From Blepharisma japonicum (Eukaryota; Ciliophora; Heterotrichea; Heterotrichida; Blepharismidae): a stretch of DNA of 64,000 nt. A model generated the notes under the pieces. That model saw only the letters and a list, made by a program, of their open reading frames with translations. It was not told the DNA's origin and made no database searches. Of the stretch, positions 2,018 through 58,659 are shown in pieces (within the stretch, counting starts at the first letter, position 1; each line of letters opens with the position of its first letter). The translations under genes and the position numbers were made by a program. The stretch covers positions 62,001-126,000 of the forward strand of contig CATKHK010000031.1 in the NCBI GenBank assembly GCA_949751835.1, in the 5' to 3' direction.

Positions 2018-3625
2018 ATGAGCAAAAAGATTGACATTCAAGAGAGAAATCAGCAGTTCCTAAAAGAGCCAGATGTTGAAGATTACAGAAGAATTCATGA
2101 TGATAACCTTGTCCAGCTCAGGAAAAAGAAAAGAAACGAGCACCTTGCCAAACGGCGCGCTTTTGGCACAGATCGTGCCACTCAAGCTCAGGATTCCGTA
2201 GAAATGGTATCTGATGAGGTAAGATTTGACATAAGTTCAGTTCCAGAAGAACTTGCCAAATATGAGAGGCAGCTTGTAAATCCTGACCTCAGCCCCACAA
2301 ATCGTCTAAATGTTCTTATTTCACTTATTATCAGCAGCACATCCATGGACTTACTAAAACTATCAGTCCGAACTCTAAGACTCGTCCTTACATATGATGA
2401 AACCAACCCATGCAAATACATAGGAGATTCAGGAATCTCTGCAAAGCTTATCCAATGTGTGCTTTACCCTGACAAAGAGCTCCAATACGAAGCTGTATGA
2501 TGTATTACAAATTTATCCTCAGGAGAAGACAAAGTTGTAGATGAACTTTTAAGGCTGAACGTCATAGAAGCTTTAAGCAAGGTTTTCAATGAGAATCCAT
2601 CATCAGATATTGCAAACCAAGCTGTTTGGGCATTAGGAAATATTGCAGGAGGCTCACAAGAGCAGAGAGATAAAGTAGTTAGCTGCGGGATAGGAGAGTG
2701 GATTATCAAGCAAATTTCAACGTCACAAAGGATGACGGGAACCTCACTTAATACTATGGTTTGGACCTTAGCTAACCTTTTACGCGGCAAAACCATTCAG
2801 CAGGCAAGTCTTTTCCAAGAGTTTTTATCTATTTCACTCAAGCTTTTAAGCTTAGATAACGAAGATATACTCAGCGACACATTGTGGGGTTTTGCGTACG
2901 CAATGGATGGAGAAGCTGGAAGAATTCAACCAGTGTTGAACACAGGCCTAGGGATGAGAATAGTCCAATTAGTAGGCTCTGACAGCTATAAAATCAAGTT
3001 GCCTGCATTAAGGGTCGTAGGGAACATTCTCCTTGGAGATGAACTTCAAACACAAACAATAATAGACTACGGTGTCATTGATCGGCTTGTGCCTTTAGTA
3101 AACAGCCAGAATAAGCTGCTAAAAAAGGATGCAGCCTGGTGTATAAGCAATATTTGTTCTGGTTCAGTATCACAAGCCGAAGCTATTTTGGCACATGCTG
3201 GAATTGGTTCTATTGTATCTCTTTTAAGAGATCCTGATTTTAATGTCAAGCTCGAAGCCTGCTACATTTTTGTGAACTCCACAAACAGAGCAAGCTCCAA
3301 TCTAATAATTAATTTGCTTCAATATGACTTAATAGAAGAGCTGTGCCAACTGATTGACCATCAAGACGCAAGAATCGTGATACTCTCGCTCCAGACTATT
3401 TGGAATATCCTCAAACACAGTAAAGCATGCATGATTCATCATAATGAAAATACCGATAAAGCCTTACAAAGACTTGATGAAATTGGAGGCATCACCAAAA
3501 TTGAGAGCTTACAAAGCCACCGAAATTTTGAAGTCTATCAAAAAGCAATAGAATTACTAAAAGAGTTCTTAGGTGGAGAGGAAGTCTCACAAAATGCATA
3601 TCAGCAGGGAAACTTTGATTTCTAA
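2018..3625 (+). CDS. Importin alpha (karyopherin alpha)
   Basis: 535-aa nuclear import adaptor that binds basic nuclear localisation signals in the cytoplasm and docks on importin beta. Residues 1-60 form the importin-beta-binding domain, with the basic stretch LRKKKRNEHLAKRR. The rest is armadillo repeats, each with the NLS-binding W-x3-N type core: AVWALGNIAGG, MVWTLANLLRG, TLWGFAYAMDG (N replaced), ALRVVGNILLG and AAWCISNICSG. A TGA at 2498-2500 is Trp 161 in the ARM core sequence EAVWCITNLSSG; this Trp is nearly invariant in the family and is one of the clearest proofs here that UGA is sense. Length matches the usual 520-550 aa. Start is ATG 2018; stop is TAA. The following gene converges on it, 53 bases away. 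Confidence 0.97.
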
Positions 3626-16128: not shown

Positions 16129-19100
16129 TTATTTTTTATTTTTGTGTTTTGAGCTTGAAAATCCAAGAGACATCGTTAGCTTCGTGATAAGCCATACAAG
16201 CAAAACTTTAATTGGCATTTTAACAAACGGCATTACAAAAATATCAGAGCCATAGCTAACACTTGTGTTGCAAATCCATTTATATGTAAGACTCAGCTGG
16301 AATTGAATAGAAAATAATATAATTGACCAACAAAAATACCCCATCAGGCTCCACGATAGCAGGAAGAATCCAAATTTTTTCCACTTCTCCCTTTTCCTAA
16401 TTTTATTTTGTTTTTTTTCATCTGACTGCTCTTTAATATTTCTTTTTGCTAGAGTTCTTAAAATAATAGTTATCGGGATCATGATACCTGCAGAGTATAC
16501 CATAACCCAAAAATCGCGAAATGAATAATTGTTAACAGCTTCACTGAAACTCATACTATCGCTGTCGTCTTCTTTTTGTTCTCCATCTTGATAAAAAAGT
16601 CCAATAAAGAACATATTTCCAAGCAAGGAAACAGTGTATGCAGTCACTCGTGAGCTATGAGAAAATTGACTATCAGGTAAAAAAATGCTGATAAAATCGT
16701 GGTTTTTTCCAACAAATTCAAAAAAGGTCATTCTTTGCTTTGTTGGTTTGGTATCAAGATTTTCAACTTGGATAGCTGATATAGATTCAGTCCTACTAAT
16801 GTCTTGACTTGAATTTTGTGTTGTTGATTGGATAGTAGGATCATAGCCTATTTTGTGACGATAAACGTGCACTATTGAATCATCTGTCCTGTAGGTCATA
16901 TCCTCAGACCTTTCAGTTAATTCATCTTGCCTTTTAGAGCATTCTTCAGTTTCAGATGGACCCTTTTTTTTATTAAGCTGTTCCTCTTCTTCTTCCTTTT
17001 TATCGAGCTTACATGCTAGCATGGTAAGGATAGTATAAAAAATCAAAAGAGCTGCACAAAAATAGAGCCCAATTGCGTTAGTATCTCAGTCAATCGACGA
17101 AAAAGCATTAACGTTCACTGTTTCCCCTATATTACTTGACTGAGCAGTACTTGCAGCACCTCCAAAAAATGCTGAAAAAATTGATAAATGGTTACACTTG
17201 CAAATTATAAAAGTAACATTGAAAGAATCTAAGACACATCCATCTGTTTTTCATTTAGACTGGCCTTCTTCTAAATAAGTGCAATTTAGTGTTGCGTTAG
17301 AGCTGTTATTTACAAATTCAACTGGGATTGAAATATAATTATAATTGGTATTGTTCAGCGGGATGGCATCATGGGTGGATAAATCTGTAAGTGTAAAGGA
17401 AACTAAAGAAAAACTTGCATTGGCACCACTAGAAATAGGATCATAAAGCACAAAGCTTGTGCCAACATAGTCATTACTGAGAAAGCTTTCTGTGTTTGAT
17501 GCTAGAGTTATTGATGCCCCCATAATTTCTGACGAAAAATTCGAGAGCACAGAGCTTGGCTGCTTTGACAGCTCCATACTGATTTTATCATCAAGGAAAA
17601 CCTTGCTTTCTCTATCTGACATTCCATTTAATAAAGCAGAGCCAACGCTTTTTATATTGCCTTCAATAGAATTTATAGTGTCTGTTTGATTTGATACTGT
17701 GCTGCTGTTGACTTGGAAGTTATTGTTGCAAACTCCAATAAATGTCTGAACTTGGGTATCATCTAGCTGGACCTTTCCATCGAGACTGCTAACAATATCC
17801 TTTATTATATCAGATACTTTTGCGATATTATCATAACTGTTAATACTCGGATTAGAAGTTATAACTTTTAACATATTGAAAACGGTTGTATAGGTACTCG
17901 GGTCATAAGGATCTGTGTTTTGTGTATAGGAAGATATTTTATCAATAGCTATGTTGTATGAGTCCTGCATCTGTTGATCCACGGCTGAATAATCTCCGTA
18001 TACGATGTAATTTCTATTTAATGATAGGGAGGAGAGATCTGAAACAAGCTTTGGAATTGAGATTGGATTTAAATCGGGTGAATTTAATTGAGACTTTACG
18101 TCATCTACATATTGGTCAACGTTTGCATCTGCTTGATAAGATACTGTAATGCTTTGAAATATAGACACTTTGGATAAAAGAGAGTCATAAACGTCTACGG
18201 ATATCATTATTGGTTTACTTGAGTAAGGAAAAGTGGAATAAATCAAGGAAGAGAGGTTTTTAGAGCTGATAACTTGGTAGATATCACTAATTAAATAGCC
18301 AAACGCATACTGGATCGGAATATTATCTTCGGGATCTACCCAATTCTGCGCTTCAATTGTAAATTGAGTTGTCATTTCATATCCTGAGCTTGGTGTTACA
18401 GCCAAACTGCCGCCTTTCGGCCCTTGATTCACATAAAATGTCCACGTAAATACAAAATTTTGATTTATTAAAGCTTCCAAAGTGTACTTGGAGCCTGCCA
18501 ATAGCGAATTTTGTGCAATTACAAGATTAGCATAATTTAAAGGGCTTGAAAATAAAATAGGCAGATCACCTCTGGCTGATCAAAGAATTGAGGTGAATGA
18601 TCCTTGGGCTTGAATACGATATGCCGAGTCAGGATTCACAATCCCTGCGTTAGGGTTTCCAATTTCTACAATATTTACAGATGGAACTGTACCTTGCTGA
18701 GTTGTTATAAATATGCTTTTAGATGTTTGTATTACTGTGCTTATTGGATTCAGAGTAGTTTTAGTCAGAATTAGGGTAAAGTTATAAGTGATCCCTGAAG
18801 AAAGCGTATTCGCTGAAATTTTCATGAGTGAACTTAATGGATCTATAATAAAATTCGAGCAATCAGCAGTATTATATACACACAACCATTGAAAATTAAA
18901 CTGTGATCTGCCATCAGGATCATAAGAGCTGCTAGCATCAATTAATAGATCTTGACTAACTCCTACCGGCCCATCAGTTCGATTAAATAAAATGACAGGA
19001 TCAGACACATCAGTTTGTATTGTCACGCTTGCTTCTCCTTGAGATAGATAAACCAAATCTTTAGCACGGAATATAAATGTGACATTTGTTGCAGCTGGAA

Positions 19101-22100
19101 GAACTTTTGGAGGAATAATCAATACACTTTGTGAAGTCTGATTGCCCTTCAATGACACTTCGTCTATGCTTGTAATGTTATTAGTAACCAGTCCAATGCT
19201 TCAAGTGACACTAATACTGCTGGAGATTGTGCAGGCTTGAATCGATGAAATAGATATGGAAAATGACTTTAACCTAGAAATGTATGTATATGCTAGAGTA
19301 TTGAAATTTATAGTCAGATATAAGGATGAAGTCGCATTTATAGATTGGGAAACAGAAACTTCATTTCCAAAGTTATTCTTTGCTGAAAAAGTAGCTGATA
19401 TAATACTATCAAAAAGTGAGCTTTTAGGAATTGAGATGTCATTATATGTGCTGTTATATTGCGTGGAGTATGCAGATATTGCTGAGCTAGCTGGGATTGA
19501 AGCAAATGTTCATTTAAATTGTTCATATGGCAGATCATTCCCAAGAACTGCAGTCAATTTTAAGGTCTCGCAGAGAATTGAGAGGGTTTTGGGAGCTGAA
19601 AATGTAAAGCTTGGACTTGGAATTTGACTTGGAAGAGAAACTGGGACTGAAAAACTGATTGGAGGATTTCCACAAACCAAAGCAGAATTTTTTAATAATC
19701 CTGATAAAAATACCACATTTTCCTTGGAAATTGTATAGCCTTTCCCTAGATAAACTGTCAAACTGCTGTAATCTGTAGCGTAAGAGCACGTATATCCAGA
19801 TCCAAAGCTCTGCAAAGTTTGAGGGTCAAATAAGGAAGAACAATTTGTAGGCGAAGCATTAGCAAGAACAGTAAAATTAAATTGTATTTTTGAATAACTG
19901 TTATCAAAAGCAGCAGACACGCTTGCTTGATTCAAAAAATTTTCACATGGTATACAATTTAATGAGCTCAATCAATAGCCTTTATTGCATACACACGGAC
20001 TTGGAGCTCCACCTGAATTTGCAGCACATTGGGTGCACTCCCCAGATCCGAATCCTGTGCATATTGAGCACAAGGGATCATTACAAATATTACATGTTCC
20101 AGCTCTAACGCATCCAGTACTACACGAGCTGCAAGCTATACAAGAGCTTCCATCTCAATAATAATTTAAATCACAAATTCATAAACAATTGGAACCTTGT
20201 CCTGTGCCACATACAAGATCATGCATAGTGCTCGAAAAATCACGAATTGGAGTATTTCATAGACTGAAAGAACTAATAAATCCATTAAAGCCAGATGTGC
20301 TGCTTTTACCAATCATTAAGCTGGAAGATGCAAGATCTCTAAATATTAGGTTTGAGAAAGGATTTTGACTGGCAACAGCATTATTCATATAAAATGTTAT
20401 TGTTGTAACTCCAGAAGTATACTCAAAAGTAACTGACAAATAACTTCAACCATCCATTGAACTTGCTCCAAATAAAGTCTGGGTATTTAAGGCTTGCGTG
20501 GGGTCTTCCATTCCAACATTAACAGTACCTGCTGCTGATAAAACGAATTCTGGAGTTTGTTTTTCAAGCCAATTATTGGAATCAAATGAATAAAGTCATG
20601 CCGCAACTGAAAAGCTGTGTGAAAGCAAAACAGGTTTCGAAGATAATAAATACATATCTCCACTAAAATACAAACCTCGCTCATATGCAGGAATTGGGTC
20701 AACTATTTCTGGACTATTAAAAGGGTAGAAAGATGTTGAGCTTGTACCCGTTGCTAAAATACCATATGCACCTTGAAAACCAGAATTAAAAGATAGATTA
20801 ATGACTGGATTTGTTACTGATATGCAAGGAGATTCAAACCCATAAGGGCATCCATTTAAGCAAACAGATCCGACCAATTGATAGTTCATTTCGCAGGCAG
20901 AGCATTCAAAATAAGCAGTTTGTAAGCACGTCGAGCAAAGTGCATCACAAAATTCGCAAGTTTCTGATTGAGAGACCCAGAAAGCGTTCGAATTGCAGAT
21001 GCAACCCCCAGCCATTAATGGACTAGCATTAGTAATACAGTCTAAGCACGACTTTGTCCCAGTAAACTCTGTGCAAGTTAAGCATTCTTTGGTCTGGCAT
21101 AGCCTGCTGAAATCTGAACTCCTGCACCCTTTGTTAGCAGATGAAAGACAACTCATACAAGATGTGCCATCAAAGTATTGAAATATTGGACAACTGTCTG
21201 GGCAGCTGAAATCAGCTGGACACATTGTGCAGCTGCTCAAGCATCCAGAAGTTTGGAAATCAGTCAATGCGTTATTGTTTTGAGAGTAAATAGTTAATTT
21301 CCATATGAATCCAGTGAACCCAGAGCTATCATAATTTCCAATATAAACATCCCCTAATTGACTGTCCAAAAGATAAATTGCATTAGTAGTAGCTGATTGG
21401 GATTTTATAAGTAGGCCATTAATATAAGAAGTTATTGTTGTTATTCCATTAGAATCTATTGCAACATCAAATGAAAGAAAATACCATCCAGAATTAGTCA
21501 CATTTGCTGTCCTTACTGTATTCGAAACGGTTGTTGACAAATCTGAGAGGGTAAGAGAAAGTTTTGGATTTCCTGTGGATTCTATAATTTTCACATATCA
21601 TGTATATCCTGTCATATATTTACCTATAATATAACCAGGTCCTAAAGGTTGAATTCAGGTAGAAATGGAAAAGGTAGGAGGAAGAGTAAAGCTGTTTTTT
21701 AGATACTTGTCTGGCAAGAAATAATAGCCCCTCAAATATGCAGGATAAGGATCATTTGCATCGTAGTTTGGGTATGGTTTTGAGTCAGAGCCGACATTTC
21801 ATCATCAAAGAGTGTCTAGCACTATTATATTAGAGAAATCAAGTGACATTACTGAGCCAGAATAATCACAGTTGTTTGTTGTAGAGTTTTGAGTATATCC
21901 TAATGGGCAATATTTAAGACATTGAATATTTAAAAAGAAATAGCCACTAACACAGCTTGTGCATTGAAAAAATCCATTTCCAAAGCAGGTTTGGCATCCT
22001 TCAACACATTTTATGCATGAAAGGCCATCATTTGATTTTTGGTAATCTTGATTGCATACACAGCTGTCAACGTCCTTTGAAGCATTATCGACACAAGTTG

Positions 22101-25100
22101 TGCATTTTCCTGGGCCAAACCCAGTGCAGAGAGAACATAATTGATCATCACAGAGATTGCAGTCATAAGGTCTAACACATCCATTAGCGCATGAGCTGCA
22201 GCTCTTATAATTGTTCGTATCTTTAAAAGATGTAATGTAGCATGCTCATAAGCATGAAGCTCCCTGCCCTGATCCGCAAAATGAAAAGCTATTATAGATT
22301 GTAGAAAATGACGAAAATGGGACATTTCACAGCTGGAAATAATAGATAAATCCAACGAACCCAGAGTTGCTGCTTTTTCCTATTTGCAGATTCGTTAAGG
22401 CTAAGTCTCGAAAAATTTTATTTGCAAAAATGGCTCCACTAGCATAAACTCCACCGAGGTAAAGATAAAGGTTAGAGGCACCTGATTGATAGTTAACAAT
22501 AAATGAAAAATAAGTCCATCCACTAAATGTTGATGTTGATAATACATGACTTTCTGTTCCTTGTTGAGTATTTTCAATTGTTAAAGACACTGATCCTATT
22601 GATCCTACTATAAGTCTTGATTGCTTTTCTAGCAAATCTCCATTAATAACGGTATAAAATCATAATCCCATTGAAAAACCGTAAGAAAGATAAACAGGCG
22701 TTGAAGATGTTAAATACATATTTCCATTAAAATAGAGCCCTCTATTATATGCAGGAATGGGATCATAAGATTCAGGAGCATTAAATGGCTGATATGTAGT
22801 GTCTGACGTGCCAGTTATGAAGATTCCATATGCCCCACTAAAATCAACATCAAATGACTGGTCAATTACTGGGTTATTAGATGCTGTAGAACAAGCATAA
22901 TCGTAACCATAAGGGCAATCATTTAAGCATATGTTTCCTATTAATTTTTGGCTAGAAGAAGCGCAGGCAGTGCATGCAAAGCTGCTGTTTTGAATGCACA
23001 CAGAGCACAGTGCGTCGCAAGGCTCACAACTTGTTGTATAGGCTTGCCAATAATAATTTGCTTTGCATTGGCATCCTCCAGATCCATCACTTTCTGCATT
23101 TGGAATGCAGCTGGCGCATGGTCCTGAAAATGTTGTACAATTATAACACTGTTTTGTTTTGCAAAGCCCACAAGTGTCTGCAAATCTACATCCTTTGCAG
23201 GTTCCCGTTCCTAAACAGTTGGAGCAAGAGGATGTATCTCTGAATGTCGTTATTGAGCAACTATCAAAGCAATTTAAGTCGCCTGGACATTGAGTGCATG
23301 GCTGGGTGCAGCCAGAGGTTTTAAAATCAGAGTAATAAAGACTTTCAGTGTTAAATACACTCAAACTATATAAAAATCCAGTAAAGCCATTATTTAAGGT
23401 CGATTTAGTTCCAATATAAAGTGTGCCAGCGGCTAAATCTTGATAAAAAGCAAGGGTTGAAGATGTAGCCATAGTTGAGCTCGCTGCATTGCAATATGAG
23501 TTTATTGTGTATGTACCGCTTGTGTCTACTTTTCCTGTAAAGGCAACAAAATTTCAGCTGCTTGGCATAATGCTACTTGATATGGTTGCAGATAATGTAG
23601 AATTATCACTCAAAATAAGAGAAAACTTGGGCGATAACGTCCCGCTCAAAGTTTCTAGACAAAAAATTTCACTTCCAGACAAAATTCTTGACATAATCGT
23701 TCCAGCTGAATTTATATTTACCCATATAGAAACAGAAAAATATGGGCCAATTATCATACCTGTAGAAAGATAAGTAGTGCCATTAAAATAGTAGCCTCTT
23801 AGGTATGCTGGATATGGATCCCCGGAATCATAATTAGGGTATTTATTTGAAGAATCAGATCCTACTTTGATCCCTTCTATTTGGCCAAGCTCTATTTTAT
23901 CATAAAAAGTTATGTTAAATTCAAGTGTTGAAACGAAGTAGCAAATACGATTATCATAATTTCCAAAGTATCCTGCAGGGCAATTGAGAAGACATATGGT
24001 ATTATATAAGTAATAGCCTAAATTGCAAGAAGTGCAAGAATTATAAGCTATGTTTGTGCAACCCTGGCATCCATTATAGCAAGGAGTGCATGAAGGCGTA
24101 CCAGTTAGGTTCTGATAAGTTCCAGAGTTGCAAGTACATGGAGAACCAGAAGCATTAGGAACGCATGAAGCGCAAGTTCCTGATGAAAATGATGTGCATA
24201 AGCATAAAGTATCCTGGCATAAATTGCAAGAGTTTCCATTAATGCAGCCATTTGTGCATGAGGATAAGCAATTCAAATTGCTGGATCCATCAAAGTAATA
24301 CAAATAGTCACATGGCCACAAAACTGTGACTGATAAATTTGTTAAAGTGCCAATACTAGAATATGCTGAAAAATCACTAATAGCTGTTTGCCATAGCAAA
24401 AAATAAGCGATATATCCTTTATATCCTGTTGGTCCTGTGCCAAGATATAGTGCTCCTGCTGGCAATCTAAATACAGCATTTTCATTTGTTGATCCCACTC
24501 CAGAATTATTATTAATATAAGGCTTAATAGTAGTAACTTTATTTGCAAACTGAACTGAATAAGAAATAAGCGACCAGACTGAACTTATAGAGCAAGAAAG
24601 TACACCGCTTATGATTGTTCCATCCCACTTTTCTAAGCTAAATGTCATCGTTCCAGTGGCATCAATATAAAATTTATTTAAGGCATGGCTTATCATCGTT
24701 CCACTCATCGGATAAACTCACATACTAATAGTTCAAGTATGAGAGAGAGCTATAGCCCCACTCAAATATTGACTAGTATTAAAATAGAGACCTCTGTTTT
24801 TTGCTGGAAATGGGTCAGCAGTTTCTGGAGAATTCCAATAGTTATAGCTCGAAGAATTACTACCTGTAATTCAAGCTGACCCATAGACTCCAGCAAATGG
24901 GCCTGTAAAGTCAGCTGTTATAACCTGTGTAGAAACATCTATGGAACTCTCAAGTCCATATGGAGTTGCATAAAGGCAAATCCCTCCAATAAGAACTTTT
25001 CCATTGCTGCATGCAGTATTTGACCAAGTTTGATTGCAGGCTGTCCCATAAATGTCGCAACATCCTGGAAGTATACCTGTCGAGCATGCAGTGCACATAG

Positions 25101-26115
25101 ATAAAGAATATCCAGAACAAGAACTGCAATCAGTTGTATAGCAATATCTGCAATCAGTACCTCTCACACACCAAGGCCATGCAGCACATCCTTGAGTGCA
25201 GCTTTGGCAAGAAGATCCATTTCAATATTGACTACTGCTGCATTCAATTTTAGTTGGCATCGCTGGCGAACTTAGGGTAGTATCAAATCTGACTTGGAGC
25301 CAATAAATAAAGCCGTTAAATGTGCTTAATCCATCTGAAGAACCAATAATTCATTTATAAGAATAAGATCATGGAAACCTTGCTTCTGTGCTTGTTGAGG
25401 TTGCACTAGAACCAACTCCATCAATATAAAAAGTCCCAATTACGTCACTGCATGTAGATTGCGAAAATACAATTGACAATTGCTGTCAATTTTGTGTATA
25501 ATAAGTACCATGAGTTCAAGTGACTATTATTCCATTCGCGTTTGAATCATAAATTTCCAGGGCAAATTTGTATACGCCAGTGCTGTCTGCATATACCCTT
25601 AAATATTGAATTGAGCTATAAACAACATTAAGAATTTCTCCATAGCCAAGGGGTTTAATTCATAAATTTATCGTAAAATAGAAAGCAGGGACATGGTATT
25701 GGTTGCTAGCTATTCTAGACGTTTTAGCGAAATAAAAACCACGATCAAGTGTTGGAAGAGGAGCTAATTGACTTGTGGAGCTATATGGAATTGAATTTGG
25801 ATTAGCAAATTGTTCAGTAGAATTGACCGAATTTGAAATGTATGTTGCAGATAAGTCTTGGACATTTGAGAAATCTAATGTAAATAAGATTGCAGCATCT
25901 CCACTCGGTGGTTTACATGAAAGAAAACCTGTCACTCTGTCAGAGTTATCAATAAATAATGAAGGGCATGCACCTAGGCAGAGTTTTGAGTCGGCCAAGT
26001 AATATGGATTGTTGCATCAGCATGCTCCGCCTGCGTTATAGCTATAATATGGGAAACAGGTCGAGTATACAAGTAAAACTTTTGCGAAATAAATTAAAGC
26101 AAAAGTCATTTGCAT
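16129..26115 (-). CDS. Giant polycystin-1-like receptor with LamG-like modules, REJ and GPS
   Basis: 3,328-aa surface protein; one frame without TAA or TAG from ATG 26113-26115 to TAA 16129-16131, crossing dozens of TGA codons (Trp), including three in a row at 21799-21807. Order of parts: signal peptide (about 1-20); six laminin-G/concanavalin-like modules, marked by AYxRGLYF near their start and IGKSSxSGFxGFI near their end, alternating with furin-like Cys-rich knots (to about residue 2060); an REJ-like region with the PKD-type turn SSYDPDG (to about 2900); a GPS motif at about 2945-2985 with CTY-x7-W, GC and CKCNHLSIFS, the site of autoproteolysis before Ser in HLS; then a membrane block whose first loop HDFISIFLPDSQFSHSSRV matches the polycystin-1 'H-x3-S-x-F-x-P-x-S-x3-R' motif. 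About five membrane helices are visible; no PLAT domain was seen. Likely a sensory or adhesion receptor of the cell surface or cilium (inference). Confidence 0.88.
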
Positions 26116-28446: not shown

Positions 28447-31400
28447 TTAAACTTTGACCGTAACTTCTTCGGGTGGAAAACTCTCCAAAATAAAATATCT
28501 GGCAATCATATAGATTGTTTGCATCACGAATATTTCAATTAAAATACCCCAAAGGAAGCAAACTGCCCAGTAGCCACTCCACTCATGGCAGAAAGTATAG
28601 CTAAGCATCACAATTCCAATTATAGAACCAATAATCAATGCAATTCCTAAAGTAGTTGCAAATGCAGGCCAATAAGGAGCTTTATTTCTATCGATACTAA
28701 AGGCAATAATTAGTAAAATTTCAATTGGAATAGTAATAGCAAGGGCCAAAATAGTGTAACCAAAGAACTTGGCTTGGTAATCACCAAATAGTGTCTCAGT
28801 AGACTCATCTGATCCAGAATTAATATCTTCAAACCCAAATAGTAATAAGCCTTCTAGTAGCAATTCAAAGATAAGCACAGTGATCAAAGTAAACAATCTG
28901 GTCCATCGAGAAAAGATTGGTCTGTAATAAACAATTCCAAATGTTAAGTGGCCTTCGAAAAGTGCCTGCAGCTCTGTTTTACTAAATTCCACAGTCTGAA
29001 TTTGAGGCTTCTCCACGACTCCTGCGACTTGGAACGCGAATGAATTTTCAGTCAAATCAATTTCCTGAGAATTTACAATGCCTCCAGATTTCTCAAAGTC
29101 TGAGCTCTCCTCTTCAGAATCCACAACCTCTTCTTCTCCTCTGCTTAACTCTACTTCTACTCCTCTGCTTAGCTCTACTTCTTCTCCTCTACTGCTTGGC
29201 TCAATTTGTTCTACTGGTATCGCATAGGAATTTTCAGTTAAATCGATTTCTCGTGATTCAATAACTCCTGAGCTTTCTTCGGATTCATCAACTACTTCTT
29301 CTCCTGATGAAATGCCAGGCGAGTTGTTTTCAGAATGTATATTCATTAGAGCCATTTCGGTTGGTCTTGACATGTGAATTGGTCTTGGTGAATTCATAGG
29401 AACTTTCTTGTGGGTCTGCTGGACTTCATGGTCTACTTTTTGAGATCTGTCAAATAAGACCATGATAGGACTCAAGATGATGAGCATGAACAAAGTAACG
29501 ACCAGGATGTAGATTGGAGCATAATTATCGCCGCATGATGAGCTTGGAACTCTGTATTTCGGAGGTGGATCTATTGCAGAGCCTGCTTCACCTAGCTTAA
29601 ACATGGAGAAATGATAAACTTCGAAAATAACACTTTCGCTATTTATTTCTATAACCTTGCAGCCATCTTCTTTTCAAGCTTTACTTGTTTCGTTATAGTA
29701 TAGGCAGCCCATCGTTGCACCTTCAGAAACATTTTTATTTATAGGAAGCTCAATCGTGACTGGGAAATCTGAGCTGGAGAATGGCTTATAAGTTTCATTA
29801 TCATAGTAGTTCATTGTATTGTCAGTATAATTGCCAGAGGTTGAGAAACTCAACGATATCACATCAGAATAATCATTGGATGAAGTATTGAAGTATAGAG
29901 CTCTCATATTCATGATGTCTGTAGATGTGTAATCCAGCTGGCTTGGAAGCGCAATAGCCATATTTGTCCCAAGTGTGATGTTTGAATTTTGCATGTCGGT
30001 CGGGAAATTCCTGTATTTGAATATTTTAGTTTGGTCTGTATTTTGAGTCCCATTGAGAGAAGTCTGATTTACAAGATCATCTTTAGTTGCAACTGAAGCC
30101 CAAGTAAGGACAAAATCATTTGCAGACATTACATAATCTTCTAGAGTTTGTTCAGAGTAGTCTGTAGTATTTCCATAGCTCATGAAACTGTCTGCAATTG
30201 AAACAAGCGTAATCATGTTGTCTTGACTAGGAGTTAGAGAAGAATAAGTTGTAAGGAGCCCATTAAGCCAGCTAATAAATTCTTTATAGAGACTTAAGGT
30301 CATCTGAGATTCCTGAGATGTCATAGAATAAAGTGCTCCCAAAACGCTGTCCAGCTCACTGCTTGTGAGATCATTTTGGCTAGACACATAGCTCTGCAAG
30401 TCGCTCCACATTCTTGTGAATAAATCACTTTCAATAGTTGCTGAACTGCAGTAGAGACTGATAGAAGATGGGATGTTATCTTCATCTAAAGTGCTGGCGA
30501 TGTAGGAATCCATTAAACTATCTTCAAGAAGTCTCTTATTAAACGCTTTAACTCTTCTAGTTTTGGTGTAATCTGAGCAAGTTCCTAGCTGGTCACAAAC
30601 GTGGGCAGTTAACTGATTTTTCCCCCAGAACAAATAGGTGCTGACTGAATTTGCTTCGGTTGCATATCCAAGTGTAAACACTTTGCCTCTCCAAATATCT
30701 TGGAATTGATATAAGATTGGTAAATCCTCCCCATCGCGATCATAACAGCCGTCAATTGAAAGTTTATAAGTGTCAATTAGAGCTGATCCATTATCGTCAT
30801 CAATATTTACTTGAAGATCACCTGTACATGCAGCACCTTGGTTTACTGAAATTGATAGCTGGATGGTTAAAGTAACACCTCCATCAGTTATACTGAGATC
30901 AAAGCCATATATAACGCCTTCAGAGAGGGTCAGTGATTGGAATCCAATTGTTGAAAGATAGTTAGGATAAAATGAAACAGAATTTCCAGATCGCTGAGTC
31001 CAAAGCAATACAGCAGTGAGAGAAGCAACAATGTTCGCAATATACTTATTGAATCTGTGGGGATTAAGTTTGAGAGTATCTGATAATATCCAAGCAGCGG
31101 TACTTGTATCCTTCTTTAAGACATTGAGATTTATAGTCAGACTTGAGCTCCTAGTATCTTTAGAAATAGTGCAAGTGATATCCCATGCAGCTCCTTTGAC
31201 CATTCTTGATTTTGGAATAGTCAAACTTGATGCAACTTCGTTGTCTAAAAGAGTTTTCGAATCACTTCCAGTACAAGTAGACCCATCTCCATTATTTACA
31301 CAAGTCCAGCTATAGCTTAGAGGAAGAGTAGAATCATCTGGATCATAAGAGCCATTTGCATCAACGGTATAGTCTTGGCTAGGAGAAATATCCCCACTAT

Positions 31401-34400
31401 TCTTTGACAACTTGATATATAGCTGAGATGCTGTGACTGTTATAGAAATGGTTGCATTTCCTGTTATCGAAACTCCGTAGCTGACTTGGGTTGCTGTAGC
31501 CATGAAGACGTATAAAGTGCTGCTAGCTGAGAGTGCATTCGCACTAATTGTCAGTTTGCTCGTAGTGCCGCCATTTGCAAGAATTGATGCAGAATCAATT
31601 TCTGGGCCACTCACATAGCTCCATTGCCAAGAGATTGAAGAAGTTAAGTCACCACAAACTGCTGATACTTTTGCTTTGAGAGTCTTGGAATTCGAAGCTT
31701 TCATTGAGACAGAGTTCCCTTGATCAAATGCTACAGTCAAAGAGTCACCTCCTTGGATTGTTGTGGTCAATGAGTCTGAATTGGAAAGACCAAGGGTATT
31801 TGTAATTTTGAGAGTTACCTTTAATGTTGTAGTCGTACTTGCGCTGAAGCTGCTTCTTTTGATATTGAGGCTGGAAGCAGTATTAGCAGCAATAGTTGAA
31901 GCCAACTCTGAGTTTGATGGAGAGATTTCTGCCGACCAAGTATAGACAAAGGTTGTTCCAAGAGAGCCTGTTGACTTTTCACTTGTATAAACTAAATCAT
32001 CTGAACTGCAAGAGACTGAAATACTTGCTGGACCACTGATTTTGGCTGTAGGAGCTGGGTTTGAAGTAGCGGTTGGAGTCACACTTAAAGGCTGATACTG
32101 CGTTGTGCACGGATCATCTGTAGCTTTAACTATATAGGTTCCGTCCAAATAGAGCAATGAGTCAGTTCTCTGAGTAAAGCCCACTCCTAACCCAATTCTT
32201 AACGTCTTTGAGTCTGCCCAAGAGCATGCCGGATTTGTTCCCAACTTTGCAAGGGAGTCACTAGTTATCACTTTTGAGCAGCTCGAGTCAAGAGTTGTAT
32301 CAATTTTGATATTAAAGTAGACATACAAATAAGCCCATGAGGCGCTGAAAGACGACTTTTTGATATCAGAGTTTGATAAGTATTTCTTGCATGTCACACA
32401 TTTATTATTAGTGAGGGTGTATCCTGAGTTACAGACACAAGATTTTGAGGCAGAATCATAAGCAGAGTTTGCAGTGCAAGAGCAAACATCTTTTGATAGT
32501 TCAGCATTTGTAATGCAAGCTGTGCAACTATTGCCATTGGATTCGCTGCAAGCAGTGCAAAGGTTATTACATACAGATGTGCAAGATCCTAGGCTATTCA
32601 AGCTGAATTGTGTGTCACATTGACACAAATTATCAGCACCAATTGATGCATGTTTCTTGCAGGTTAAACACTTTGATTGACTTTCACAAGTTTCACATAG
32701 ATCTGGACACTTAGTACATTTTCCATTAAGAGAGAAATAGCCTGTAAGACAAGCACAAGAAGCAGTTGAAGTTAAAGCTGCTTTTTCTACACAAGCAGTG
32801 CACAGCTTCTCTGAAGTGCAAGAAGAACATCTTTCAGGGCAATTAGTACATATTGAATTGGTAGTGTTATAATATTGAGCTGCTGGGCATGAGCACAATC
32901 CAGTTTTTGTTGCAAGAGTCATACCATCTTGGCATTTTGTGCAAAAAGTTGAACTGCTGCATTCTGTGCAAGGTAAACTGCATTTAAAGCATTGATTGCT
33001 TTTTTCGTACATTCCTGATTTACATACACATGTGCCTGGCTGACTTTCGTTAGCTATCATCAAGACATCTTTACACTCAGTGCATTGAGTTTCAGAAGAA
33101 CAGATAGCACAGTTATTACTACATGATTTACAAGCCTTTGAGACTATATCATAATAGTATCCGTCCTTACAAACACATTTAAGTGGACTATTAGGATCTT
33201 GGACCATAAGAATTGGGTCTATGCAAATCGTGCATTGGGTCTCACTGCAAGATGAGCAAAGATCTCCACAAGTGACCTTACAAGTATTTGTGCCTTGGTG
33301 GTATCAATAGCCATCTATGCATTTGCAATTAGTAGGATTACTTGTATCTTTTATAACGTTGACAATATTTTCACACGCAAAGCACTTCTCTGCGCTACAC
33401 CTATTGCACAAGCTCCCACAAGGCAAGCAATTTGTTCCTTGGGCATAAAATGCTCCAGAACATATACAAGATCCAGGGTCTGCAGGATCAATAGCCATTG
33501 TTTCTGAGTTTATGCACTCTAAACATTTGCTGTCGCTTTCACAGTTTTTACACAAAATTCCACAGTTTGTGCAAGCATGTAAATCTGTGTCGTAATATGA
33601 TCCTTCATAACATTTGCAATTAAATGGATCATTAGGGTCAAGAGCCATAGTTTGAGTATCCAAACACTCTGTGCAATGCATAGTGTCACAAGAAGAGCAA
33701 AGAGCCCCGCATGAGCTAGAGCATGAAGTTCCACAATCTTCACATTTCTTAGTCGCATAATTGTAGATATGCCCATCAGTACATTTGCAACCTTTTACGT
33801 TATCTGGGTCCTTTTCAATATTGTCTATGTTTTCACATGTAAGACATTGGTCTGAGTTACACGTGCTGCATAAAGTTCCACAAGCTAAACAGGTTGAATC
33901 TTTTAAGTAGTAGGAATCTTTGCAAGCACACTTACCAGAGCCTTCAGGGTCAGGAATCATAGTGGTAGGATCAGAGCATTGAGAGCAAGCTGTTTTACTG
34001 GAACAGAGAGTGCAGAGATCTTCACAATTTTTGCATGATTGCGAGATTGTGTCATAATAAGTAGATCCAGTACACACTGAAGAGCAGCTATTATCGCAAG
34101 CAACACAATCGTTTTCTTTAAATATTGAACCTTTTGGACAGGAGCAAGATGTGCTATCAGATATTTGGCTACCTTTGCAAACGCAATTTTTGTTGTTGAC
34201 TGCTGTATCAATCTTCATTCTGATTGGGTCAGCACATTGAGTGCATGCTCCAGTATCGAAATCGCATTGACTGCAGAAAGTACCACAGCTTACACAATTG
34301 CCATTATTAAACCAACCAGAGCTGCATGTGCATGAGTCAGCTTGCTTTTCCAAATTTCCAATACAGACGCAACTTAAATGATCATCAGAGAATGTCATTG

Positions 34401-37400
34401 TTTTTTCATTATTACAATGCAAACAAGATGCAGTTTTGTCCTCACAATTATGGCATAGATCCCCACATTGCAAGCAGTTTGAGCCATCAAAGAATTTTCC
34501 AGCTTCGCAGCTACAGGTTTGCCCATCAAACAGCTGGTTTCCTGCACATTTACAAGTTTCAGGAAGGTCTTGATTGAAAATCATCCTATCATTCTTGCAT
34601 TTGGTGCATTTTCCATCATAGTTGCTGCACTCGCTACAGAAATCGCCACATGGTACACATTTTCCTGCTTTAAAGTAGTACCCAACTTGGCAAGAACATT
34701 TATTTAATACTTTATCAAGCGTCATGCTTGAGTCCACACATGATTTGCATGCTCCAGTAAAATCTTCGCAAGCCTTACAAAATTCAGGACACCAAGCACA
34801 CTGAGAACCATCGAAAAACTCTTGAGAAGCTAAACAGTTGCACCCTGAAGAGCTTGATGTTTGGTTTCCGATGCATTCACAAGCCAAGCCAGATTTAGAA
34901 TAGACCATTCTCTTTGGCTGTAAACATGAAGTGCACTTACCATCGTAGTCATCACATTTACCACAGAAAGTTCCACATTTTACGCAGTTTTGGGCGTTAA
35001 AGTAGTAGCTTGAGCTGCAAGTACAGCTCGACCCAGAAAGAGTTTGATTTCCTATGCACTGACAGATGATATTACTTAGAACCATTCTTTTATTGTCAAA
35101 ACATGAGGTGCACTTATTAGTTGTGGAATCGCATTCATCACAGAGGGTTCCACATTTAGCACAAGTAGTGCCATTGAACATCCCAGTTTCGCAGATACAG
35201 TTCGCACCATTAAAGATTTGAGTTCCCAAACAGTCACATTCTTTACCATTCTGATTTATAGCAGCATTATTAGGCTCTGAACAAGCTTCACAGTCTCCTG
35301 AATAATCTAAACACTTGCCACATTGTTTTCCACAGGCCACACAGTTTGAGTTGTCAAAATAGTGGCCATCAGAGCAGGAACAGCCTGCTGAGGTTGGTGT
35401 CTGGTTTCCTTTACAAGTACATGTATTAGGATTGGTCAGTGAAAGTTCCATCTTAGAAGGATCTATACAGGTTTCACATATACCTGTGGGATCTTTGCAT
35501 TTAGAGCACCAGCTATCACATTGAATGCAGTTTGAGCCATCAAAATATGTTCCATCTGCGCAATAGCATGCAGAATTAGTGTAAAGCTGGTTTCCGATAC
35601 ACATACAGTTTTTATTATTTGAAGTGCTGAAATCCATTCTGGTGATGTCCTTACATGCCAAACATTTGCCAGTTACATCCTCACATTTTGTGCACCATTT
35701 ACCACAGGCTTTTCTATGAACTCCGTCACCTACTGCATAATATCCGCTTGAAGGTGTCTTACAAGTGTAGCCGTCAATTCATTTATTAAGGTCCAAACAT
35801 TTGTCACACTGCTTAACTCTTGAGCATGCTCCGCAGCCAGAATCAGTACATCCTGCACATGTATTCCCATTAAAATACTCACTAGTGCCACATTCACATC
35901 CATAGAGTCCTGCAACCTGATTTCCTTTGCACTCACAGTCGTGGACATTTGTGGTGCTGACTTGCATTGTATAACCATTCCAACAATACAAGCAGTGCCC
36001 ATTGCTTGAATCACATGTGCCGCACCACTTTCCTAAGCAGGATTCACAATTTTCTCCATTAAAGTAATAATTTGAGTTGCAATAGCAAGAAGTTCCTGTA
36101 GATAGTTGGTTTCCTTTGCATGAACAAGTTGCACCATTTGAGTCTATTATCATTGTATTAGGGTCGATACAAGCACTGCAACTGTTGTAAGATGAGCACG
36201 TAGCACAGAGGGTTCCACAAGGAGAACAGTGAGCCCCATCCTTCTGTGAATAATATCCAGCAGGGCAACTTTGGCAAGAGTATCCATTTACATAACTCGA
36301 TAAGTCTTTACATTGAGAGCATTGGCGAGCAGCAGTACATTTTTGACAATCTGGATCAGTGCATTGATAACAGTAAGCATTCTTCAAGAAATATCCATCA
36401 TCGCAGTAACACTTGTTATCGCCAGGTTTTAAGTTTCCTTTACAAGCACAAATCTGGTTATTTAAAGATGAAATCGCCATATTGATTGAGTCAATACATT
36501 TTGTGCATTCCCCAGTGAAATCTTTGCAAGTTGAGCATAAATCGAGACAACTAATACAGCTTGAGCTTACGCTATCAAAATAGCCGCTGCTGCAGTAGCA
36601 ACCAGTATCTCCTGCAATCTGGTTTCCCTTGCAACTGCATACTCCGTTCAATAAATCCATTTTCTTGGCATCCTGACATTCTAAACATTTTCCACTTGTC
36701 TCTTCACATGTTTTACAGTCCTTTCCGCATTGCATGCACTGTTTACCATCGAAATAGTAGCTACTTGGGCAAGTACAAGTGTTGGCGTCTGTATCAAGGG
36801 TCATGAGGCTATCAATACATGAAGTACATTTTCCATTTGTGTCACTACAAACTTCACAATGTTTGGGACAGTCAGCACATGTTGACCCTGTGAAGTATGT
36901 CCTTGTCGCGCAATAGCAAATGTTACCGCTTGATAACTGAGAGCCTTTGCAACTGCAAGATCCATCAGCATTACTGACCATCCTATCTTTATTCATGCAA
37001 GCAGAACAAGCTCCTGAATAATCAATGCAGGTCTTACACATTGTTCCACAGCGGACACAGTTTTGATTGTCAAAATAGTATCCAGAGTAACAATAGCAAG
37101 TCTTTTTACTCAAATTCAGCAATTGGTTGCCAATACATTGGCAGTGATATTTCGAATTAGGAACATGCTCAAATCTCTCTAAACAAGTTGTGCAGTCTTT
37201 TGAATTTGAATCGCAATCATCACAGTAAGCGCCGCAATTAGCACAAGCAGTTCCATCATAAACCTTATTTTCCAAGCAAGAACAGGTTCCAGGATCTGTA
37301 ACACTTACAGCCATAGTTGTGTCATCCAAACAGGAAGAACAATCGGTGATGCTTGTACATTTATCACATAGAGTCCCGCAAGCATTACATTTGCTTGTAT

Positions 37401-40400
37401 CAAAATAGGTCCCATCTGGACATTTACACTCAGTGCCAGAGATTAGCATGGATGAATATTTACATTGTGAACAGGCATCCGCAGTGCATTTTGCGCAATT
37501 TGCTGTGCAAGATTCACATAGTTTCGTCCCAGTGTTATAGAAAAAGCCATCATTACACTTTAGACAATTATCTTCATCACATGATAAACAGTTTTGGGTA
37601 CAGATAAGACAAATGTGGCCATTCCAGGTTCCATCAGGACAATAACATTTTTTGGATGTTTCATCATAGAGCTGAGTTCCTGTGCATTTACACCCTGATT
37701 TGTCATCTTTAACAGCCATTCTTTGGGAGTCAGAACAAGCTGTGCAGGAAGCAGAAACATCATCACATGCAGCACACAGGCTTCCACAAGGCGAACAATT
37801 TGAGTTATCAAAGTAACTACCAGTTGAGCAATAGCATTTAGTTCCATCTGATAATTGATTTCCTTTGCAAGAACATTTATTCCCATCTACTTGCATCCTA
37901 TCATTCTTACTACAAGAAGTGCATGTACCAGTTAAATCATCACATTTATCACACATGCTTCCACAAGCTTTGCAAGTTCCATCAGAACTGCTAAAATATG
38001 TCCCAGCTTGGCAAGAACAAGATTTATCATTATTTTGAATTTGAGAACCTTTGCACTTACATGTTGTGCCCTTTGGATCAGGGTACATTCTATCAGCATT
38101 TACACATGTAATACAAACAGCAGTGATATCTTTGCATGCAGTGCAGGTACCATCACAAGCCTTGCAGACGCTTCCATCGTAATATTCTCCTGCAGCGCAG
38201 TAGCATGAACTTCCGCTTTGGGTTGCAGTTCCTTTGCATTTGCAAACCTTCTTGTCTCCATCATTAATTTCTGCATTTTCAACGCAAACTTTGCAATTTC
38301 CTGTAGAATCTTCACAAGTATCGCAAAGTTCGCCGCATTGAACACAAGTGGAATCATCAAAGAAAAATCCATCAGAGCAGCTACAAGAGTTTCCACTCAA
38401 AATTTGAGTTCCTTTGCATGTACAAGTTTTACTATCTTCGCTTATTTTCATTCTCTTTGAGTCCAAACAGGCAGAGCAATCTCCGGTATCGTCTTCACAA
38501 GAGGAACAAAGGCTTCCACAGGCCAAGCATTGAGTTCCATCATAGTAGGTTCCAGTACTGCAACATGAGACATGTTCGACATCTGCCTCAATTCTTAAGT
38601 TATTTTCACAAGATGAGCATAAACCTGTATAGTCCTCGCACTCTGTACAAAATTCAGGACATTCAGTGCATTTTGATCCGTCATAGTAGCTGTGTGAGCC
38701 ACATCCACAGCTGGAGTCATCAATGATGTCGTCTTCAATTCGGAAGTTGTTTTCGCATTTTGTGCATTTACCTGTTAAATCTTCGCATTCTGTACAGAAA
38801 TCGCCACATTGGATGCAAGTATTGTCGTTGCTATTGTAAGATCCTGGGGTACAACCACACTCTGTTATGCTTAGTTCAATTCTAAAGTTACTTTCACACT
38901 GAGTGCAAACACCAGTATAATCAGAACACTCTAAGCAACTCTTTCCACAAGAAGAGCAGCCGACTAATGGGTTGAAATAAGTTCCAACATTGCAGTAACA
39001 GTGAGATGAATCCTCTGTTTGGTTTCCAATACAACTGCATTTATTGGGATCGATATCATCTAATTTCATTCTATTATTGTCAATGCATGTTTCACAAGCT
39101 AATGAGGTTTCATCACAAGTGTAGCAAAAATGACTACATTTAGCACAGGTTGTTCCATTGAATTGTCCTTCAGCACATACGCAATTATTGCCATCGAAAG
39201 TTTGAGTTCCTAAGCACTCACAAATTTTATTATCATCTTTCTTTTTGCCCATTTTATATTCATCTTTACAAGTAATGCACTCTGCAGTGAAGTCTTTACA
39301 TTTAGCACATTTATCATAACATTCTAAGCATTTTGAGCCATCGAAATACTTACCGCTATCACAGGAGCAGCTCGAGCCTGTTTGAGTTTGGTCACCTTTG
39401 CATACACAAATTGTGCTATCATCATTTGAAATTTTCATCTTATTATTATCAACACAAGATGTGCAATGCCCTGTATTATCTTCGCAAAGGCCGCACAAAT
39501 CGCCACAAGGCACACACTCTTGCCCATTATAGTAGCTTCCATCTTCGCATCCACACCCATCGTCAGTAATATCGAGGGAGAGTCTAAAAGTGCTATCGCA
39601 AGATGTGCATCCTTCATTATCTTGGCAAGCTATACAATTCTTTCCACAGGCTAAGCAAGAATTTTCATTAAAATAAAAGCCTTCTTCACATTTGCAAGTT
39701 TTAGGATTATTAGGGTCTTTAATCATCCCTTCAAGGATACATTTTTTGCAATTGCCTGTGCCATCTTCACATAGACTGCACTTAGGGTCACAGCTTAAGC
39801 AAGAGGTACCATCTGAATATGTTCCATCGCTGCAACAGTTCGAATCAGTTATATCAAACTCAAGTCTTAAATTGCTGTTACAGGTCAAGCATTTTCCTGT
39901 AATATCCTCACACTCTTCACATTTATCACTACATTTTTGGCATGCTCCTTGGCTATCCATATAATATCCTGCATCGCATCCGCATTCTACAACATCAAAG
40001 ATAAGTCTTAAATTGCTGTCGCAGGACAAACAATTTCCTGTAATATCTTCACACTCTTCACATTTATCACTGCATTTTTGGCATGCTCCTTGGCTATCCA
40101 TATAATATCCTGAGTCGCATCCGCATTCTACAACGTCAAACTCAAGTCTAAAATTGCTGCTGCAAATCAAACAATTTCCTGTAATATCCTCACATTCTTC
40201 GCATTTATCATTGCATTTTTGGCATGCTCCTTGTTCGTCCATGTAATATCCTGGGTCGCATCCGCATTCTGCAACGTCAAACTCAAGTCTAAAATTGCTG
40301 TTACAGGTCAAACAGTTTCCTGTAATATCCTCACATTCTTCGCATTTATCATTACATTTTTGGCATGCTCCTTGCTCGTCCATGTAATACCCTGGGTCGC

Positions 40401-43006
40401 ATCCGCATTCTACAACGTCAAACTCAAGTCTAAAATTGCTGTTACAGGTCAAACAGTTTCCTGTAATATCCTCACATTCTTCGCATTTATCATTACATTT
40501 TTGACAAGCTCCTTGATCGTCCATGTAATATCCTGAGTCACATCCGTCGCAATCATTAATCTCAAGTTCAAGTCTTAAACTACTGCCACAAGTCAAACAG
40601 TTTCCTGTAATATCTTCACACTCTTCACATTTATNNNNNNNNNNNNNNNNNNNNNNNNNNNNNNNNNNNNNNNNNNNNNNNNNNNNNNNNNNNNNNNNNN
40701 NNNNNNNNNNNNNNNNNNNNNNNNNNNNNNNNNNCACTGCATTTTTGACATACTCCTTGATCGTCCATATAAAATCCTGAATTGCATGCACAATTAGTAA
40801 CATCAAGTTCAAGTCTTAAATTACTGCCACAAGTCAAACAGTTTCCTGTAATATCTTCACACTCTTCACATTTATCACTGCATTTTTGACATACTCCTTG
40901 ATCGTCCATATAAAATCCTGAATTGCATGCACAATTAGTAACATCAAGTTCAAGTCTTAAATTACTGCCACAAGTCAAACAGTTTCCTGTAATATCTTCA
41001 CATTCTTCACATTTATCACTGCATTTTTGACATACTCCTTGATCGTCCATATAAAATCCTGAATTGCATGCACAATTAGTAACATCAAGTTCAAGTCTTA
41101 AATTACTGCCACAAGTTAAACAGTTTCCTGTAATATCTTCACACTCTTCACATTTATCACTGCATTTTTGACATACTCCTTGATCGTCCATATAAAATCC
41201 TGAATTGCATGCACAATTAGTTACATCAAGTTCAAGCCTTATACTACTGCCACAAGTCAAACAGTTACCTGTAATATCTTCACACTCTTCACATTTATCA
41301 CTGCATTTTTGGCATACTCCTTTGTCATCCATATAATATCCTGAATTGCATGCACAATTAGTTACATCAAGTTCAAGTCTTAAACTACTGCCACAAGTCA
41401 AACAGTTTCCTGTAATATCTTCACACTCTTCACATTTATCACTGCATTTTTGGCATACTCCTTTGTCATCCATATAATATCCTGAATTGCATGCACAATT
41501 AGTAACATCAAGTTCAAGTCTTAAACTACTGCCACAAGTCAAACAGTTTCCTGTAATATCTTCACACTCTTCACATTTATCACTGCATTTTTGGCATACT
41601 CCTTTGTCATCCATATAATATCCTGAATTACATGCACAATCAGTTACGTCGAATTCAGATCTAACAGTGGGGTCACAACTAAGGCAAGCACCAGTATAAT
41701 CTTCACACTCTAGACAGTGAGGTTTGCAAGACAGGCAGCTACTTCCATCATAATAGTATCCCGATTTGCAGCAGCTATTTTCTGTAATTTCTATCTCAAT
41801 TCTGAAGTCATTTGAGCAAGTTATGCATTCTCCAGTCTCATCTTCACATTCACCGCACTTACTAGGGCATTTTAAACAGTCGCTTCCATCGTAATATTGC
41901 CCTTGATCGCAGCAAGAGGTCACGTCCATCTCAATTCTGAAGTCATTTGAGCAAGTTATGCAATCTCCAGTTTCATCTTCACACTCATCGCACTTACTAG
42001 GACACTTTAAGCAATTACTTCCATCATAATATTGCCCTTTATCGCAGCAAGAGGTCACGTCCATCTCAATTCTGAAGTCATTTGAGCAGGTTATGCATTC
42101 TCCAGTTTCATCTTCACATTCGCCACACTTACTAGGGCACTTTAAACAATCACTTCCATCGTAATATTGTCCTTTATCACAACAAGAGGTCACATCCATC
42201 TCAATTCTGAAGTCATTTGAGCAGGTTATGCATTCTCCAGTTTCATCTTCACATTCGTCACACTTATTAGGGCACTTTAAACAGTCGCTTCCATCGTAAT
42301 ATTGCCCCTTATCGCAGCAAGATGACACGTCCATCTCAATTCTTAAGTCATTTGAGCAAGTAATGCATTCTCCAGTCCCATCTTCACACTCACCGCACTT
42401 ACTAGGGCACTTTAAGCAATTACTTCCATCATAATATTGTCCTTTATCACAACAAGAGGTCACGTCCATCTCAATTTTGATATTCTGCGAGCATGATGTG
42501 CACTTTCCAGTTACGTCTTCACATTGATCACATCCTTCCTCACATTGAACACAAATTTTTCCATCAAAATAATGCCCAGATGAAGTGTCTTCATCACTAT
42601 CAACAATTGTCAACTCGATATGGAAAGTGTCTTTACAAGAAGTCACACAAGTGCTAGATTCTGAATCCCAAAAAAGGCCATTTTTGCATTTACATTTACC
42701 ATCAGATTTGTCCATGTTGTTTTCGTCAAGGCAAATTGAGCACACTGTATCGGTGCATTGTGAACAAAGGCCAAAGGCACTGCAATCATCAAGGTGACGC
42801 TTTGGTCGACCTGGAAATTTTTGTTTTGAGCCTCGCCCTGCCATAGCAATTTCTTGAGAAGGGCTAAAATCAGACGAAGAGTCGTCAGTGAGCTCAAATT
42901 CCATATGAGCAACGAGATCTTCATCCTGAGGAGAAAATTCAATCATTTCGGCAACTGAGAGCTGCCAGAACACTAAAAAGAACCACAAAATGATTCGATT
43001 TAACAT
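28447..43006 (-). CDS. Giant Cys-repeat/REJ/GPS-like/polycystin-like receptor
   Basis: Surface protein of at least 4,819 aa; ATG 43004-43006 to TAA 28447-28449. One frame from 28447 to 40634 and, after the 100-N gap, a frame shifted by one, as expected of a placeholder; deleting the Ns restores a single frame. Residues 1-20 are a signal peptide (IILWFFLVFWQLSV). Next come more than 70 furin/EGF-like cysteine-rich repeats of about 40-47 aa, including near-identical runs of 45 aa and 47 aa. From coordinate about 32390 downward follows an REJ-like region (SYDPDDSTLPLSYSWTC, SPSQDYTVDANGSYDPD), then a GPS-like motif (MGCLYYNETSKAWKEDGC, then VYHFSMF) in which the usual C-x-C is missing. The membrane block has about six helices, SRWTRLFTLITVLIFELL matching the other giant gene, and a cytoplasmic-type Glu/Ser-rich insert that repeats EIDLTENS twice. 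Probably a large adhesion or sensory receptor (inference). Confidence 0.86.
39850..41670 (-). repeat. 141-bp in-frame tandem repeat array
   Basis: About a dozen visible copies of a 141-bp unit encoding 47 aa with the core KCEECEDITGNCLTC, each unit having seven or eight cysteines. Successive copies of the stretch containing tcgtccat lie 141 bases apart (for example 40761 and 40902). Copies next to the gap are almost identical at DNA level; the outer copies on both sides diverge, the usual pattern of recent expansion by unequal exchange in the middle of an array. Confidence 0.9.
40635..40734. other. Assembly gap (100 N) inside the 141-bp repeat
   Basis: Exactly 100 Ns. The bases on the two sides, ttcacatttat and cactgcattttt, are contiguous in every other repeat unit, so the true gap should be a whole number (possibly zero) of 141-bp units. 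It is an assembly artefact of the array, not a frameshift in the gene. Confidence 0.95.
41790..42490 (-). repeat. 135-bp in-frame tandem repeat array
   Basis: Five to six copies of a 135-bp unit coding 45 aa with the core FRIEMDVTSCCDKGQYYDG and CPSKCGECEDETGECITC, close to the N-terminus of the giant protein. It is a separate expansion from the 141-bp array, with a different cysteine spacing (CC pair). Confidence 0.85.
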
Positions 43007-57282: not shown

Positions 57283-57336
57283 CTTAATTTTATTTCTTCA
57301 ACAGAACTAAATAGAAGAGAATTATTATCAACATGG

Positions 57337-58644: not shown

Positions 58645-58659
58645 ATTTAAAGATATCTA

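Follow-up and report, generated by a model that had tools for sequence, protein, structure and literature searches.

The window analysed here is a 64,000-nucleotide stretch of Blepharisma japonicum DNA (contig CATKHK010000031.1, positions 62,001 to 126,000 of the forward strand), and its minus strand carries a gene for a protein of 3,328 residues. This protein appears to be a polycystin-1-like receptor half with a head of laminin-G-like (LamG) modules, an architecture that databases already contain and for which no family description was found among the literature matches listed. Our data are best explained by a large surface receptor of adhesion type, in which an ectodomain of LamG modules and Cys-rich knots is followed by a REJ-GAIN stalk and by a block of five transmembrane (TM) helices resembling TM1-TM5 of polycystin-1 (PC1). 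Weighing against this explanation is the finding that the canonical tripeptide of the GPS motif occurs in only 6 of 24 aligned rows, because of which our confidence was reduced to a probability of about 0.68. That value covers identity and receptor role, and the signalling step lies outside it. The features of the gene, ordered from its 5′ end, are as follows:

16129..26115, minus strand: whole gene, ATG start at 26115, stop TAA
26056..26115, minus strand: N-terminal hydrophobic stretch, probable signal peptide, about residues 1-20 (hydropathy peak at residues 3-21)
25258..25896, minus strand: LamG-like module 1 (residues 74-286), the most divergent; leave-one-out score 43.9 bits, missed by Pfam alone
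24358..24924, minus strand: LamG-like module 2 (residues 398-586), below the Pfam cut-off, found by the leave-one-out profile
23317..23934, minus strand: LamG-like module 3 (residues 728-933), passes the Pfam cut-off
22288..22869, minus strand: LamG-like module 4 (residues 1083-1276), leave-one-out score 139.3 bits, missed by Pfam alone
21232..21858, minus strand: LamG-like module 5 (residues 1420-1628), Pfam 33.7 bits
20218..20805, minus strand: LamG-like module 6 (residues 1771-1966), Pfam 35.6 bits
19936..25257, minus strand: six Cys-rich knots, five separating the LamG modules and one behind the last (about residues 287-397, 587-727, 934-1082, 1277-1419, 1629-1770 and 1967-2060; borders uncertain by up to 7 residues)
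18082..19242, minus strand: REJ domain (residues 2292-2678), PF02010
17158..18024, minus strand: predicted GAIN fold (residues 2698-2986)
17173..17286, minus strand: GPS motif (residues 2944-2981), PF01825 and alignment; four Cys, His-Leu-Ser at 2976-2978
17011..17067, minus strand: TM1 (residues 3017-3035), by hydropathy, helix in the model
16666..17007, minus strand: acidic loop between TM1 and TM2 (residues 3037-3150), at the position of PLAT in polycystin-1, no PLAT match; model confidence score (pLDDT) mostly below 50
16168..16659, minus strand: TM2-TM5 (residues 3153-3316), four helices in the model, three at hydropathy 1.5

Reading frame, ectodomain and stalk

The initial annotation had described an uninterrupted frame of ten kilobases without a detectable intron, and its coordinates proved exact. 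An in-frame TAA lies immediately 5′ of the ATG. Under the standard code the frame is interrupted by 30 TGA codons, and with TGA read as Trp it contains no internal stop, where 161.8 TAA and TAG codons would be expected from base composition. Its Trp codons are then 30 TGA and 25 TGG, and the probable B. stoltei ortholog, itself predicted with UGA as Trp, has Trp opposite 28 of the 30 TGA and all 25 TGG. UGA is reported to encode Trp in B. stoltei, where introns are mostly 15 and 16 bp long (PMC9942806). A 15-bp intron preserves the frame and hence could stay hidden in it. Compared with codon shuffles, there was no excess of intron-like 15-mers: GTA..TAG 15-mers were absent (1.3 expected), GTA..TAG 16-mers numbered 2 (2.25 expected), and plain GT..AG 15-mers and 16-mers numbered 19 (22.2 expected) and 31 (24.3 expected), respectively. 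The end-to-end alignment with the ortholog showed no 5-residue excess of the target protein, and there are no N letters within the frame, which is apparently intronless.

The whole-protein profile scan matched Laminin_G_3 with 104.5 bits in six stretches at E ≤ 1. When the modules were scanned singly, modules 3, 5 and 6 exceeded the Pfam cut-off, module 2 fell below it (E 0.0027), and modules 1 and 4 gave no Pfam match at E ≤ 0.1. When each module in turn was compared with a profile built from the remaining five, scores were 43.9 to 147.2 bits, with the best shuffle at 8.6 bits or less (196 to 200 shuffles scored per module). All six laminin-G-like modules of the initial annotation are thereby borne out, as are its Cys-rich knots, six in number and 14-18% Cys. 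The modules belong to the LamG/ConA-like lectin superfamily by their Laminin_G_3 sandwich, and the structure prediction of one module supports the predicted fold class.

The REJ and GPS domains that had been read in the same frame were both recovered by profile search, REJ with 104.8 bits (cut-off 25 bits) and GPS with 32.2 bits (cut-off 22.5 bits). The GPS score was obtained when the C-terminal 649 residues were scanned alone, and the scan of the whole protein gave no GPS match. The structure model supports the predicted GAIN fold class, and the stalk is probably self-cutting, judged from its intact motif and fold.

The membrane block and comparison with known systems

The target has five membrane helices in the structure model and four hydropathy peaks. 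In the best structural-search row TM1-TM5 aligned to PC1 3067-3620, and among 50 structural rows the TM part pairs with polycystin-1 chains; one CD97 row spans the TM part with an rmsd (root-mean-square deviation) of 19.9. A sequence profile of TM2-5 found no believable match in PDB or Pfam. PLAT, PKD_channel and PKD repeats gave no match in the whole protein at E ≤ 1 or in C-terminal pieces at E ≤ 10, and LRR, C-type lectin and WSC gave none in the whole-protein Pfam scan at E ≤ 1; a plain polycystin-1 was rejected on these scans. The frame ends after TM5, with a remaining tail of about 12 residues. A genome-wide PLAT search returned zero matches, controls included, and is uninformative on other genes. 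The membrane block thus predicted corresponds, by fold only, to at most the first five of the eleven helices of polycystin-1. The initial annotation had assigned a polycystin-1 membrane block and proposed profile checks of the translation: REJ, GPS and Laminin_G_3 were detected, PLAT and PKD_channel were without match, and the block stands for the first five helices at most. With no PLAT, TOP or channel part detected, the target does not qualify as a polycystin-1 as ordinarily understood.

PC1 is described as carrying LRR, PKD repeats, C-type lectin, WSC, PLAT, TOP, channel-like helices and a coiled coil (PMC9672506). The target shares with PC1 (PKD1) and PKD1-like proteins REJ, GAIN/GPS and, as far as the predicted fold suggests, TM1-TM5, but the Pfam scans found in it none of those PC1 modules that they covered, and it has LamG in their place. 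The lectin/EGF modules of suREJ1 are of other folds than LamG, and this protein has one TM. Like the target, suREJ1 has REJ and GPS, in its case beneath a carbohydrate-recognition ectodomain (PMC4700764), and some sea urchin REJ proteins are reported to have eleven TM (PMC9672506). A published non-animal counterpart is the brown-algal Ectocarpus Esi0130_0068, a REJ and GPS protein of 1427 residues with 6 or 7 predicted helices and a weak polycystin-channel match reported inside its REJ region; it differs from the target in that no LamG or Cys-knot array is mentioned in the passages of the source that deal with it (PMC4700764).

The REJ family in Blepharisma

The genome (45.2 Mb, 224 contigs) gave 54 REJ matches, or 51 loci once merged. 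In at least 10 of the 51 loci a Laminin_G_3 match lies upstream on the same strand, at a distance of up to 16 kb, and two more (C117 and C67) have LamG by the family profile; these LamG counts are lower bounds, as 150 of 255 candidates were scored. PKD_channel matches number 35, all outside REJ genes. At none of the 51 loci did one lie on the same strand in the 8 kb downstream, and for at least five loci the contig ends before that distance. The neighbourhood counts used 35 of 138 LamG rows and 12 of 35 PKD_channel rows, the other rows lying on contigs without a REJ match or (four on C46) more than 140 kb from one.

The 3′ ends of 30 of the 51 loci were fetched from the genome, the target being among the other 21 and read from the window. 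In 19 of the 30 a single frame led to a stop codon, in each case 8-83 residues past the last helix, and hydropathy gave five helices in 18 of these 19. The 11 uncounted loci comprise seven with no profile row, two that run off the contig end (L040, L049) and two that matched the profile in part (L037, L038). The predicted products of REJ loci readable to the end keep the chassis of REJ, GAIN and five TM helices and vary the ectodomain. Since the absence of the channel is common to these relatives, it is not damage to the target gene.

In a midpoint-rooted tree of 23 C-terminal parts there were two arms. The first comprises 8 rows, including the neighbouring gene described below, with a changed GPS and no LamG seen; the target and every one of the 8 LamG-labelled rows fall in the second. 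L043 and L026 have long branches. On this tree LamG must have changed three times, perhaps through a single gain and two losses, and the absence of LamG carries little weight because for most loci the label draws on about 1-2 kb of upstream sequence.

UniRef and NCBI already hold B. stoltei LamG+REJ proteins as unnamed products. The probable ortholog of the target (P0003, UniRef 'TNFR-Cys domain-containing protein', 3331 residues) is 80% identical end to end and has the same six LamG modules, REJ, GPS motif and C-terminal helices in the alignment, with no difference of architecture seen. Two further B. stoltei LamG+REJ proteins are both longer, with 10 and 8 LamG modules by the family profile and LamG placed before REJ. 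Protein-database searches restricted by word gave matches from B. stoltei only, and no description of ciliate REJ or LamG-REJ proteins was found among the best-ranked open-licence literature matches. The initial annotation knew of no described protein with this domain order; the order is not unique, given the ortholog and the two further B. stoltei proteins. Identity to B. stoltei is 75% in the head versus 88% in the core (the C-terminal part), and this faster change of the head would fit a recognition role, without proving it.

The REJ-to-TM core of the target is nearest, within its own genome, to the locus on C67 (69%), and LamG modules 5-6 are nearest to a LamG gene cluster on contig C69 (57%), with the target's own modules 3-4 at 44%. 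This search with modules 5-6 covered 69 of 482 candidates, and ranks below the top are incomplete. Of the 69 matches listed, 25 fall on C69 (12161-236285), with 23 on one strand and identities of up to 57%. Genome searches gave neither a REJ match nor a core match on C69, and 3′ of one of its genes (L052) only further LamG and knots were seen within the stretch reached. The C67 locus, with an open frame of 1,282 residues, had been taken as a paralog without LamG, which was rejected as two LamG modules lie upstream of its core. These are 23-33% like target modules 3, 5 and 6, with no match listed to modules 1, 2 and 4. Because the core is nearest one paralog and the LamG array nearest another cluster, the head appears exchangeable; most simply, head and chassis would have had separate histories and been joined before the split from B. 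stoltei.

A tandem paralog (L050, one of the 19 counted loci) lies upstream of the target in the window:

28447..43006, minus strand: Cys-rich repeats, REJ, GPS-like motif and five TM helices, no LamG found

It consists of two long frames flanking a 100-N assembly gap (40635-40734), and its GPS has His-Phe-Ser with two Cys lost. Its REJ scored 76.8 bits in the genome search; hmmscan of a 1,318-residue piece and of the 4,118-residue frame gave no REJ, possibly an effect of the composition filter. Three matches to its TM block lie about 1.8 kb apart on contig C41 (66804-71096), which has no REJ match, and are perhaps short genes with the membrane block only. TM-block matches on contigs C210 and C154 contain TAA/TAG and are perhaps decayed family members. 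On contig C78 (72500-131200) a pair of LamG+REJ genes, one per strand with LamG at 78672-94038 (minus) and at 115639-125049 (plus), resembles an inverted duplication. Elsewhere in the window, at 56233-59694 on the minus strand, two frames resembling papain-type cysteine peptidases (349 and 344 residues, named by eye) have another frame between them, perhaps a duplication.

Alternative explanations and proposed mechanism

The alternative that survives best is that the protein descends from a true polycystin-1 whose PLAT and channel half were lost in the lineage, and that it now serves simply in adhesion or as a coat structure, with no signalling. On identity this coincides with the receptor reading, from which it departs on function, and the odds of the two do not sum to one. 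The REJ, GAIN/GPS and TM1-TM5 matches and the short form common to the 19 paralogs fit such a loss, but these data do not separate loss from ancestral absence, and the intact His-Leu-Ser GPS together with the 88% conservation of the core suggests that the membrane part still matters. We regard this alternative as possible but rather unlikely.

It is considerably more doubtful that the protein is an adhesion G-protein-coupled receptor (GPCR) of CELSR type with a decayed seven-helix domain. Adhesion GPCRs fill the top nine Foldseek rows and head the profile matches, and in CELSR and ADGRG4 a GAIN stalk occurs with LamG or pentraxin-type modules and seven TM helices, LamG and GAIN co-occurring in CELSR. 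The target likewise has GAIN/GPS, but its model has five helices in place of the seven-helix domain, five being also the number in 18 of 19 paralogs. The loop between helices 1 and 2 is long, the TM part pairs with polycystin-1 chains while the CD97 row has the high rmsd given above, and, to our knowledge, adhesion GPCRs are without REJ, which is not a GPCR module. Finally, although the neighbouring gene contains a 100-N gap, it is scarcely credible that the locus comprises more than one gene, or a frame fused by assembly error, given the same order over 3,331 residues in a protein from the separate B. stoltei genome, the LamG-before-REJ order in the two longer B. stoltei proteins and the frame free of N.

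If the protein is an adhesion-type receptor, it would be secreted and anchored in the membrane. The intact motif and the fold suggest that GAIN would cleave itself at His-Leu/Ser, leaving the ectodomain and the membrane part as a non-covalent pair. The LamG array might then bind a glycan or glycoprotein on prey, on a partner cell or on the cell's own coat, and pulling or shedding of the ectodomain would alter the five-helix part. This part may signal alone, or act in trans on a distinct PKD2-like channel in the same cell, for which the 35 PKD_channel matches outside these genes would be candidates. The last step is borrowed by analogy from PC1, where the PC1/PC2 channel is reportedly activated by a cleaved N-terminal fragment via the C-type lectin domain. 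PC1 is described as having a peripheral TM1-TM5 part and a TM6-TM11 part that assembles with three PC2 subunits (PMC7728438). A more speculative proposal, which we consider unlikely on present data, is that of a split polycystin. The two halves of animal polycystin-1 would be separate families in Blepharisma (51 REJ loci and 35 PKD_channel matches) acting in trans, REJ-GAIN-TM1-5 would be an old stand-alone receptor that was later fused to a channel in animals, and the head would be swapped among genes.

The family bears on the origin of polycystin-1 and on the role of its front five helices without the channel. It is a natural family that seemingly has the TM1-TM5 part only, together with the GAIN stalk and, in this gene, an intact GPS and a lectin-type head, so that the receptor half may be testable alone. 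With its many members and exchanged ectodomains, the family is also a candidate ciliate recognition system, which may serve in mating, prey recognition or recognition of the cell's own coat.
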